Positions 11,225 to 15,900 of a stretch of DNA of 64,000 nucleotides are shown here, one piece after another; position 1 is the first letter of the stretch, and each line of letters opens with the position of its first letter. Where the stretch lies: positions 62,001-126,000 of the forward strand of contig JAPWHL010000004.1 of the NCBI GenBank assembly GCA_027214255.1. Direction: 5' to 3'. The DNA comes from Roseovarius aestuarii (GTDB taxonomy: Bacteria; Pseudomonadota; Alphaproteobacteria; Rhodobacterales; Rhodobacteraceae). Under the pieces are notes generated by a model. That model did not search any database. It saw nothing but the letters and a program-made list of their open reading frames with translations, and was not told the origin of the DNA. Both the position numbers and the translations under genes were made by a program.

Positions 11225-12160
11225 TCAGCGGGCGCCACGTTCATAGGCAGCACCCAAAGCTGCGGGCAATTTTGCCCGCCGGCCATAAAGTACCAGCACC
11301 AGCATCACCGCCGCAAAGGGCAGCATCTGGATCACATCAGTCGGAATATTCGATCCCGCGACTTGCAACGCCGTTGTCAACGACAGCGCAGCACCAAAGA
11401 TAAGCGAGCCGATCAAAACCCACAGCGGTCGGCCCCGCGCCAGCATTGCTAACACAATGCCGATGAAACCCGCCCCACCGGTCATAAACGGGATGAACAG
11501 ACCGGCCCCGATATTGGCAAGATATGCTCCGCCAAGCCCGGCCATGGCACCTGTGAACAGCACCACAAAAACACGAATGCCCAAGACATTACCCCCAGCC
11601 ACATCCAGCGCCGCCGGACGCTCGCCCGCGGCCCGCAGGGTCATGCCCAGATTGGTGCGCCGATATAGCATCGCCAAAACAACCACCGCCAAAAGCGCCA
11701 GATAGACCAGCATATGTCGCCCAAAAAGCGACGGCCCGATGATGGGCAAATCTGTTAGCCACGGAATGTTCAACCGCTCAGGTGCCGGAAGGCGCGGATA
11801 GGTGCGGGAAAACTGAAAATGGTGCAACAGCGCCGTCAGCCCCTCGACGCCAAGTGTCAGTCCGATACCGATCACGATCTGGTTCAGGCCCAAACGAACG
11901 CACAGCACCGCCATGACAACCGCCGTCAAGACTCCCCCTAAAATCCCGCCAAGAAATCCCATCCAAAGAGAGTTGGTTTCAAATGCGACAAGAAACCCCA
12001 TATAGGCCCCCATCAACATCATGCCCTCGATGCCGATGTTTAGCACACCGGCCTTTTCGGACATCTGTTCGCCCAACCCGGCCAACAGCACGGGGATAGC
12101 GGCCACGATAGCACCGGTTAGCAAAGACGATAGAAACGCCTCGGTCAGTAATCCACCCAT
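11225..12160 (-). CDS. BMP-type ABC transporter permease (second subunit), putative B6 vitamer importer
   Basis: 311 aa from ATG at 12160, which follows the stop of the upstream permease by one base and has an AGGAG site. A longer start at 12193 would overlap that gene. Hydrophobic multi-span membrane protein of the BPD_transp_2 (LivH/RbsC-like) family, with the [15 protein letters not shown] segment shared by nucleoside-type importers. It is the last transporter gene before the 4-pyridoxolactonase gene in one operon. Family members pair with a second permease, a double-domain ATPase and a BMP binding protein, all present here. Substrate by context: pyridoxine, pyridoxal or pyridoxamine (inference). 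Confidence 0.9.
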
Positions 12161-12161
12161 C

Positions 12162-13271: not shown

Positions 13272-14881
13272 GCCGTTGCCAGTTCCTGTTCATCCTCGCC
13301 CGCCATCATCCGACCGATCCGCAAACGCAGTGCTTCCCCGCTGCCGTCGTTCTGCACGATGCCACGAACCCGACCACCTTCCATCACCGCAATGCGGTCG
13401 GACAGGGCCATCAACTCGTCAAGGTCGGTCGAGATAAGCACGACGCCCAAACCGCGTTCAGCGATCTCGGCAATGCGCTGACGCGAGGTATCAATGTTTT
13501 GCAAATCCAGCCCGTAGGTCGGCTTGTTGAACACCACGACCCGCGCTTCGCCAGACAGTTCGCGCCCCAACAGAACCTTTTGGATATTGCCACCCGAAAG
13601 CCGCCCGATAGGCGTGGTTTCGTTCGGGGTCTTTACCGAAAATTTCTGGATCAGGTCGCGCGCATGCTGCGCGATACGGTTTGGCCGCTCAATGCCATTC
13701 ACCCAATACGGGGGTTGTCCGATATCCTTAAGCACTGTGTTCTCGGATACGGGGAACGCCCCTACCGAGCCCTCTTCCAAGCGATCATCGGTCAGGTAAC
13801 GCAACCCCCTCAAACGGCGCTGCGCCACCGAGGCTTGCGTGATGTCTTCGCCGCCCAGAACAACGCGCCCCGACATAGCCGGTCGTTGCCCCGCCAAGGC
13901 CTCGGCAAGTTGCTTTTGCCCATTGCCGTCGATCCCGGCGACGCCCAGAATTTCACCTGCACGTATTGCCAGTGAAACACCTTCGACGCCCAGAACATCG
14001 GCGTCACCCTGCGTTGCAAGGTCTTGAACCTCAAGCAGGGTTTCATCCCGCGCGCTGCTTTGGCGATGCTCGGTCGACGTGCCATCCGTTTCGCGCCCGA
14101 ACATCATGCGAACGATTACTTCTATCGCACGATCTTCGGACATGGATCGCAGTTCATCGGGGTCGATTTCACCGGCAAGCGCCCCTTGCTTCAAAACCGA
14201 AATACGATTCCCATAGCGATAGGCCTCGGACAGCTTGTGCGTGATAAAGATCACTGCCAGCCCGCTTTTCGCCAGATGCTGCATCCGCTCGCCCAGTTCC
14301 TGCGCGCCCTGCGGCGTCAGCATCGAGGTCGCCTCGTCCAGAATCAGCACCTTACTGTCGCGCAATAGTGCGCGGGCAATCTCGATCTGTTGCTGCTGCC
14401 CCAAAGAGAGCTCGCCTGTTATGGCGTCAAGCGGCAGTGACAGGCCGAATTCGCGCTTCAATTCTTCCATCCGCGCCGCGACCCGAGCACGGGGCGGACG
14501 ATCATACCAAGGTGCGCCCAAAATCAGGTTTTCAAACACTGTTAGCGTCGGCACCAACATGGAGTGTTGAAACACCGTGCTGATCCCTGCCTCAAGACTG
14601 GCCAAAGGGCTGGCCAGCCGTGTTTTTTTTCCGACCAGTGACAAATGGCCTTCGTCCGGCTCTTGGATTCCCGACAGGATGCCGACCAGCGTGGACTTTC
14701 CCGCGCCATTTTCACCAAGAAGGACATGCACCTCGCCCGGATGAAACGTAAGCGATACATTGTTGACCGCAATAACACCCGGGAAGCGTTTGGTGACGCC
14801 ATGCACACCGATTAGACCTGCCGCCGCCTTTGGCGGCAGGTCTGTTTGGGTTTCCATTGAGTTAGTCACAGATGTGCTCAC
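13268..14881 (-). CDS. BMP-type ABC transporter ATP-binding protein (two nucleotide-binding domains)
   Basis: 537 aa. First domain: Walker A GENGAGKST, signature LSLGQQQQIEIA, Walker B VLILDEAT. Second domain: degenerate P-loop GVAGIDGNGQ, signature LSGGNIQKVLL and a non-canonical Walker B VVFNKPTYGLD lacking the catalytic acid, a common pattern in the second half of RbsA/YufO-type proteins. The GTG start at 14881 overlaps the stop of the binding-protein gene (GTGA); an in-frame ATG at about 14857 is an alternative. It powers the importer made with the two permeases downstream. Confidence 0.91.
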   Translation of the reverse strand: MSTSVTNSMETQTDLPPKAAAGLIGVHGVTKRFPGVIAVNNVSLTFHPGEVHVLLGENGAGKSTLVGILSGIQEPDEGHLSLVGKKTRLASPLASLEAGISTVFQHSMLVPTLTVFENLILGAPWYDRPPRARVAARMEELKREFGLSLPLDAITGELSLGQQQQIEIARALLRDSKVLILDEATSMLTPQGAQELGERMQHLAKSGLAVIFITHKLSEAYRYGNRISVLKQGALAGEIDPDELRSMSEDRAIEVIVRMMFGRETDGTSTEHRQSSARDETLLEVQDLATQGDADVLGVEGVSLAIRAGEILGVAGIDGNGQKQLAEALAGQRPAMSGRVVLGGEDITQASVAQRRLRGLRYLTDDRLEEGSVGAFPVSENTVLKDIGQPPYWVNGIERPNRIAQHARDLIQKFSVKTPNETTPIGRLSGGNIQKVLLGRELSGEARVVVFNKPTYGLDLQNIDTSRQRIAEIAERGLGVVLISTDLDELMALSDRIAVMEGGRVRGIVQNDGSGEALRLRIGRMMAGEDEQELATA

Positions 14882-15900
14882 TCAGCCACGGTGACCAAAG
14901 CACGGACATCTTCCGCATCGAACTTTGGCTCGATTACAACGTCACCTGCGATGATTTGATCACGCAAGTCCATGATCTCGCTCCACGCCGCTTCGTCCGT
15001 GATCTGCGGGGTTTTGAGCAATTTGACCGAGTCGTCAGCCAAACCAATCGAATACCCGTGTGCGCCATATTTGTCGGCCTTCAGATCCTCGATCATCGCG
15101 ATGTAAACCGGGGTCATGTCCCACACAACCGATGTCAGCAAGTGGCCGCTGTCCAGTTCCGATTTGTCTCCGATCACGTCGATGAACATCACGTCCGACC
15201 CATCGGTGGCCTTGTTCGATTCAACGGCTTGGATCATGCCAAAACTTGAACCATTGCCCTGACCAAAGATAATATCGGCACCCGCTGCGATAACCGAGGT
15301 TGTCACGCGGTTTCCGCCAGCTGCATCCGAATACGCCGCAGGGCCAATCACCGAATAGAGGATCTGCACATCAGAATTCTCGGCCTTGACGCCTTCGGCA
15401 AAGCCAGCGGACTGCGCGTTCCAAGAGGGTGGCTCACCGGACACAACGATACCGACAGTGCCCGTGGTCGACATTTTCGCCGCCAGACGGCCCGCCAGAT
15501 ACGCGCCTTGGTGACCCGAAAGGGTGTAGTCCGCCACAAGCCCGTCTTTCAACGCCTGAGGGCTGTCAACGATCGCAACCGGAACGCCTGTTTCGTCGGC
15601 AATTTCAGGACCGGCTGTGTTGTAACCGCTGGCATGGGCGATCATCAGGTCGGCACCTTCGGCCGCAAGCTCACGCATTGGCGCGCGCACGTCGCCATAT
15701 CCCAGACCTTCGGCAACGATAATCTCGACACCCGTTGCTTCGGCTGCAGCCTTCGCGGCATCCACACCCTGCTGGTTCCAACCATAGTCACTCCCTTGTT
15801 CCGGAGTCAGAATTGCTATGGTATTGACGTCAGCAGCGAGTGCCGCCGTGGCCCCAAGAGCCATGCTTAGCGCGGTAGAAATAAGTAGGTTTTTCATCAT
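14878..15900 (-). CDS. BMP family substrate-binding protein of the putative B6 importer
   Basis: 340 aa with a Sec signal peptide (about residues 1-23, ending AALAAD) and no lipobox, so a soluble periplasmic protein. BMP/PnrA (basic membrane protein) family, e.g. LTPEQGSDYGWNQQG and VGIVVSGEPPSW. Family members mostly bind nucleosides. Here the gene opens an operon whose last three genes are 4-pyridoxolactonase, pyridoxamine-pyruvate aminotransferase and pyridoxal dehydrogenase, so a B6 vitamer is the most economical ligand (inference). Two adjacent ATGs (15900 and 15897) are possible starts. Confidence 0.88.
   Translation of the reverse strand: MMKNLLISTALSMALGATAALAADVNTIAILTPEQGSDYGWNQQGVDAAKAAAEATGVEIIVAEGLGYGDVRAPMRELAAEGADLMIAHASGYNTAGPEIADETGVPVAIVDSPQALKDGLVADYTLSGHQGAYLAGRLAAKMSTTGTVGIVVSGEPPSWNAQSAGFAEGVKAENSDVQILYSVIGPAAYSDAAGGNRVTTSVIAAGADIIFGQGNGSSFGMIQAVESNKATDGSDVMFIDVIGDKSELDSGHLLTSVVWDMTPVYIAMIEDLKADKYGAHGYSIGLADDSVKLLKTPQITDEAAWSEIMDLRDQIIAGDVVIEPKFDAEDVRALVTVAE

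Follow-up and report, generated by a model that had tools for sequence, protein, structure and literature searches.

What does an ABC importer carry when its genes lie directly beside genes for the degradation of vitamin B6? The question is raised by a BMP-type importer in a stretch of 64,000 nucleotides from Roseovarius aestuarii (contig JAPWHL010000004.1, positions 62,001 to 126,000), hereafter the window. An earlier note on this DNA had put it forward as a candidate B6 transporter. A B6-related ligand is strongly supported because of the co-occurrence of the importer with B6 genes, the operon structure and the loss of two ribose-facing residues from the binding protein; the proposal is supported in part, the ligand being one that we infer. 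We consider it probable that the importer carries the non-phosphorylated vitamers pyridoxine, pyridoxal and pyridoxamine.

The importer genes and the three genes that follow them are these:

14878..15900, minus strand: BMP-type substrate-binding protein (SBP), 340 aa; NF047927 ABC_BMP_B6, 481 bits (cut-off 400)
13268..14881, minus strand: two-ABC-domain ATPase, 537 aa; NF047930, 787 bits (cut-off 670)
12162..13271, minus strand: permease subunit 2, 369 aa; NF047929, 531 bits (cut-off 400)
11225..12193, minus strand: permease subunit 1, open reading frame (ORF) of 322 aa; NF047928, 556 bits (cut-off 465)
10353..11159, minus strand: 4-pyridoxolactonase; NF047925, 481.5 bits (cut-off 325)
9158..10342, minus strand: pyridoxamine-pyruvate aminotransferase (PPAT); NF046070, 650 bits (cut-off 600)
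8381..9124, minus strand: pyridoxal 4-dehydrogenase, SDR type; NF047923, 391 bits (cut-off 325)

With every subunit above its NCBIfam cut-off, the four-gene importer at 11225-15900 on the minus strand is real and complete. It also runs, as had been claimed, into the lactonase, aminotransferase and dehydrogenase genes on the same strand: the lactonase ATG (11159) lies 65 bases past the permease, the PPAT ATG (10342) 10 bases after the lactonase and the start of the dehydrogenase (9124) 33 bases after PPAT. The importer had been described as fused into the operon, which is correct in the sense of operon-like adjacency, but no protein fusion is involved. Concerning the overlaps between the importer genes, those of SBP with ATPase and of ATPase with permease were confirmed at 4 bases each, while the 32-base overlap of the two permeases exists only if the gene at 11225-12193 uses a TTG start. 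The NCBIfam match of this permease begins at residue 12, near 12160, which is the likely start, and the two permeases would then nearly abut.

The arrangement was compared in 80 loci, the best 80 of 264 relatives found in a scan of named genomes and therefore a set biased to close relatives; up to 10 kb were taken on each side, several stretches were ended by contig edges, and identity thresholds were applied to the markers. The order SBP-ATPase-permease-permease was collinear in 75 of these loci; four of the other five lie on short contigs missing some subunit, and in the fifth (L110) the ATPase match falls below the filter. Permease, lactonase, PPAT and dehydrogenase were collinear in 57 of the 80, the median distances from the end of one tblastn match to the next being 52, 26 and 55 bases. 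Such recurrence indicates that the adjacency of these genes is more than chance.

The distribution of the genes among genomes agrees with this, with the reservation that the counts take no account of relatedness between genomes. Within the order, the cut-off of the SBP model was exceeded in only 3 of 149 genomes (471-490 bits, the next protein reaching 121 bits against the cut-off of 400), and PPAT was above its cut-off in the same three. In a sample of the class, 10 of 385 genomes have the SBP (nine above cut-off, the tenth with a partial match close to the end of a contig); 8 have PPAT, and each of these is one of the 10 with the SBP.

Upstream of the importer, the window holds further genes of the same pathway, listed below, with a TRAP transporter between them and the importer:

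16393..19260, minus strand: TRAP transporter, with DctP at 16393-17418 (PF03480), DctM at 17447-18721 and DctQ at 18718-19260 (PF06808, PF04290)
19265..20194, minus strand: 5-formyl-3-hydroxy-2-methylpyridine 4-carboxylate (FHMPC) 5-dehydrogenase; NF042925, 559 bits (cut-off 500)
20191..21819, minus strand: GMC oxidoreductase (GMC domains), candidate 4-pyridoxate dehydrogenase
21912..22640, minus strand: Mlr6791 homologue; 2z7b ("Mlr6791 protein"), 445 bits
23830..25173, minus strand: 2-methyl-3-hydroxypyridine-5-carboxylate oxygenase (ring cleavage); 3gmb, 742 bits
25004..26035, minus strand: alpha-(N-acetylaminomethylene)succinate hydrolase; 3kxp, 439.5 bits
26008..26700, plus strand: GntR-type regulator; PF00392 and PF07729
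26763..28331, plus strand: pyridoxine 4-oxidase; 4ha6 ("Pyridoxine 4-oxidase"), 837 bits

Judged from these matches, the vitamin B6 degradation pathway via 4-pyridoxate is near-complete in the window, the 4-pyridoxate dehydrogenase being the GMC candidate, which we name from its position and from what we take to be the course of the pathway. The Mlr6791 homologue is presumably the ring decarboxylase. Homology begins at about residue 65 of the ring oxygenase ORF and at about residue 75 of the hydrolase ORF. The pyridoxine 4-oxidase also matches 3t37 ("Probable dehydrogenase") at 844 bits, the next other chain standing at 244 bits. The GntR-type protein is a candidate regulator of the cluster; a regulator 78% identical to it was found in 3 of the 80 loci (L043, L045, L046).

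At least one of ten B6 markers taken from these genes was present in 76 of the 80 loci, and the TRAP DctP marker was never the sole one. PPAT was found in 70 stretches, the lactonase in 65, FHMPC dehydrogenase in 63, pyridoxal dehydrogenase in 58, the 4-pyridoxate dehydrogenase candidate in 57, TRAP DctP in 40 and pyridoxine 4-oxidase in 15, while the Mlr6791 homologue, the ring oxygenase and the final hydrolase were found in 30 each.

The second line of evidence is the binding protein itself. Its membership in the BMP family was confirmed by PF02608 (Bmp) at 112.2 bits against a gathering cut-off of 24.1, the sole Pfam match at E 1e-5, and its N-terminus reads as a putative signal peptide. 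A P5PA-type importer of pyridoxal phosphate, with a binding protein of the PF13531 type, was also considered and rejected, the SBP being a Bmp protein. The AF2 model of the SBP (pLDDT 88.6) has as its closest folds solved BMP-type proteins (VIA, Z 27.8-35.1); the top 14 VIA rows are BMP-type entries, and the next drops to Z 20.4. Scores were 35.1 for Lbp, 34.7 for AtzT, 34.5 for PnrA and 28.9 for RfuA, where differences below 1 count as ties.

The closest folds are therefore nucleoside- and guanine-binding BMP proteins, which speaks for an ordinary nucleoside or nucleobase importer located in the cluster by chance. The pocket argues otherwise. In BmpA, according to PMC13325309, the base is clamped between Phe27 and Phe176, and the residues said to engage the ribose are Asp98, Lys242 and Asp225. 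These residues were mapped onto the SBP by hand, via an alignment of about 20% identity together with one to 30 further, distinct BMP proteins of relatives. Trp41 and Tyr190 occupy the clamp positions, Ile243 stands at BmpA Asp225 and Trp260 at BmpA Lys242, and the nucleoside-type Asp/Lys pair is thus missing from the window SBP and from all 80 relatives. W41, Y190, I243, W260, H89, E156, Q214 and K246 are each present in 80 of 80. At the I243 and W260 columns, 23 of the 30 other BMP sequences have Asp and Lys, six have other residues and one is a fragment that ends before these columns are covered. The pocket would suit a small heteroaromatic ring, without the normal ribose site, and would be compatible with B6. 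Besides the two replaced residues, the co-occurrence of SBP and PPAT, the four B6 equivalogs and the presence of other BMP proteins in the genome also speak against a nucleoside importer, and we regard that explanation as very improbable.

The neighbourhoods of the importer bear on which compound of the pathway it may carry. One alternative is that the importer carries a breakdown product, 4-pyridoxate or 4-pyridoxolactone, and that the vitamers enter by the TRAP transporter or another route; in most loci the lactonase gene is indeed the direct neighbour of the importer, with collinearity through the dehydrogenase in 57 of 80. However, a second type of neighbourhood, with the importer, PPAT and an HpaB-like monooxygenase (8 of 8), was found in 8 of the 80 loci (L068, L069, L073, L077, L088, L102, L109 and L114, with L038 of G115 in addition), and within the stretches of this type there was no lactonase, FHMPC dehydrogenase, window-type TRAP or NMT1 protein, while a pyridoxine 4-oxidase homologue was present in 6 of the 8 (the one in L068 matching 4ha6 at 609 bits, with the next other enzyme at 269). 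The slot held by the TRAP transporter in the window is variable: a window-type TRAP binding protein occupies it in 40 of the 80 loci and an NMT1/THI5-type ABC protein in 14, never both. In these 14, mostly Mesorhizobium and Phyllobacterium records (L097 is titled Mycobacterium), an NMT1/THI5-type binding protein and permease replace TRAP, as at L096:7504-9363. The TRAP or NMT1 type was always accompanied by the lactonase (54 of 54) and was found in 54 of the 72 loci without HpaB and in none of the 8 with it, and the importer was kept in both neighbourhood types. What the two types have in common is the vitamers, which are therefore the most likely cargo of the importer, with TRAP or NMT1 most likely carrying something specific to the lactonase route. 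TRAP binding proteins mostly take carboxylates, a preference that suits TRAP for 4-pyridoxate, and the window TRAP probably imports a pathway compound of this kind. A breakdown product as the ligand of the importer is therefore, in our judgement, unlikely.

Some observations weigh against vitamers as the ligand. Two of the ten class genomes with the SBP (G305 and G472) have no PPAT, and no B6 marker was found within the stretch of 4 of the 80 loci: L060, whose contig is 4.3 kb long, L064, L081 and L110. The TRAP argument is weakened by G305, in which (locus L119) a different TRAP operon adjoins the importer and no lactonase match was found in the 20 kb stretch, and TRAP itself could import B6. 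As to the pocket, its columns come from the low-identity alignment described above. The third ribose residue, BmpA Asp98, aligns with Asp112 or with the column beside it, and 79 of 80 relatives have Asp112; this Asp may thus be retained, so that only two of the three ribose-facing residues are lost, a point to the credit of a nucleoside ligand, which the two replaced pocket residues and the co-occurrence nevertheless disfavour. Finally, the six other BMP sequences without the Asp/Lys pair, the second BMP protein of the window among them, mean that its loss does not single out B6. The loci without B6 markers, and the other catabolic genes that adjoin the importer in G305, would fit another heteroaromatic compound (a B6 glycoside, a thiamine pyrimidine or a hydroxypyridine), the link to B6 degradation then reflecting a shared niche. 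Such marker-less loci are few, though, and the HpaB type shares PPAT in all eight loci and mostly (6 of 8) a pyridoxine 4-oxidase homologue, so we hold this explanation to be quite unlikely.

If the importer does carry vitamers, the periplasmic BMP protein would hold the pyridine ring in a sandwich of Trp41 and Tyr190, with no normal ribose site, and pass the vitamer to the two permeases, with the ATPase driving uptake. Inside the cell, pyridoxine 4-oxidase, PPAT and pyridoxal dehydrogenase would turn the vitamers into 4-pyridoxolactone, which the lactonase and the later enzymes would degrade as a source of carbon and nitrogen. The adjacent TRAP transporter, or the NMT1-type ABC transporter in some relatives, would bring in an acid of the pathway, for example 4-pyridoxate.

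The earlier note had also suggested that a B6 ligand would be a new specificity for the BMP family, which is best known for nucleoside import. This has to be qualified, as NCBIfam release 20 already names the equivalogs of all four subunits "putative B6 ABC transporter", and as the BMP fold is known to cover guanine, 2-hydroxyatrazine and riboflavin. In everything compared, our importer agrees with the NCBIfam system, itself labelled putative, with all four subunits above the cut-offs; the NCBIfam set has no model for the divergent, probably secreted companion described below. With PnrA, BmpA, BmpD and Lbp the SBP has the fold and the aromatic clamp positions in common, but by our hand mapping the clamp is Phe/Phe in BmpA and Trp/Tyr in the SBP, and Asp225/Lys242 of BmpA correspond to Ile243/Trp260. 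AtzT and RfuA, at 17-21% identity to the SBP, combine the BMP fold with non-nucleoside heteroaromatics, as proposed here: riboflavin binding is given in the entry title of the RfuA structure (4iil), and AtzT, according to PMC6834077, binds guanine and 2-hydroxyatrazine and has a Tyr/Trp clamp as at the clamp positions of the SBP, with other hydrogen-bonding residues.

Dedicated B6 uptake, as proposed here, is the function of PdxU, PdxU2/HmpT and P5PA, which Denise et al. 2023 (PMC9997740) give as the only three characterised prokaryotic B6 transporters, the carriers of most species being, in their words, unknown. These belong, according to the same paper, to families other than BMP (COG1840/PF13531 for P5PA, PF07155 for PdxU and PdxU2/HmpT), and they differ from the present case in that here the importer genes sit with degradation enzymes. 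Among the literature matches listed, there was no experimental BMP-type B6 importer and no HpaB/NicX-type B6 route, which is a weak absence. What is new here is the pocket argument, the argument from two neighbourhoods, an unnamed companion family and a possible HpaB/NicX-type route. If proven, a BMP-type B6 importer would be a B6 carrier of a new family; it would also provide a pocket rule to split BMP proteins into nucleoside and base or vitamin types, and a way into the study of bacteria that use vitamin B6 as food.

The HpaB-type cluster is possibly another route of B6 ring cleavage. A homologue of 2,5-dihydroxypyridine 5,6-dioxygenase was found in 7 of the 8 loci (409 bits for the protein of L068), and L068:1463-8877 also holds a flavin reductase, two amidases and an AbrB-type membrane protein. 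The complete set was found in L069, L073, L077 and L114 as well; no amidase or flavin reductase match was found in the stretches of L088 and L102, and in L109 HpaB, at the edge of the stretch, is the only one of the set. In this route the HpaB-like monooxygenase would hydroxylate the unsubstituted ring carbon (C6), para to the 3-OH, the NicX-like dioxygenase would then open the 2,5-dihydroxypyridine-type ring, and the two amidases would release acetate and ammonia.

The companion, on which the earlier note was silent, is encoded between TRAP and the SBP on the opposite strand:

15944..16387, plus strand: unannotated gene, divergent to that of the SBP, for a probably secreted beta-sandwich protein with cysteines, its family unnamed (ORF 15818-16387; 15944 is the likely start)

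Homologues encoded on the opposite strand, no more than 300 bases away from the SBP match, were found in 69 of the 80 loci; anywhere in the stretch, a match was found in 73. Compared by codon position, the window and five loci differ by 0.21-0.32, 0.16-0.20 and 0.49-0.56, a pattern that fits a protein under purifying selection. The genome search used a loose first filter and scored no more than 26 candidates in each order genome and 10 in each class genome, so that members may have been missed. The family was present in 3 of the 149 order genomes, the same three that have SBP and PPAT, and in 6 of the 385 class genomes, all among the ten with the SBP; in this search none was found in the other four (G218, G305, G434 and G472), two of which have PPAT. 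In several class genomes the companion is closer to PPAT than to the SBP.

The window companion matched no NCBIfam and no Pfam family and had no PDB sequence match at E up to 1, and 44 members of the family gave one weak NCBIfam match (E 0.0097) and no Pfam match. In its AF2 model a beta-sandwich is predicted confidently from about residue 31 onward, with no clear structural relative, Foldseek giving two matches at E <0.001 with TM 0.27 and 0.42-0.56. A resemblance to the PepT2 extracellular domain (VIA, Z 8.7) is barely over the non-specific range and was set aside, no function being read from it. The N-terminus and the conserved cysteines suggest that the protein is secreted, and it is a candidate for a dedicated periplasmic partner of the importer, for example a vitamer-capturing protein or an SBP helper. 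Only tentatively, and with somewhat more doubt than belief, do we propose the combined picture of a five-gene importer, with the companion as its periplasmic partner, that would also feed a second, HpaB/NicX-type B6 route in other Alphaproteobacteria. With the companion and the HpaB-type neighbourhood, what was a single guess in an annotation becomes two questions that can be tested directly.

Two further observations concern BMP-type importers. At L119 (G305) the importer relative, for which neither PPAT nor a companion was found, is also adjoined by a GMC oxidase, an aldehyde dehydrogenase and a gluconolactonase-isochorismatase fusion. The window itself contains a second BMP importer at 28700-37200, with its SBP at about 30049-31032, its ATPase at 32403-33923 and permease-like ORFs up to 35894, and this importer adjoins an amidase and two cytosine-deaminase-like amidohydrolases. 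It is perhaps an importer for a base or a hydantoin, and its SBP likewise lacks the Asp/Lys pair.

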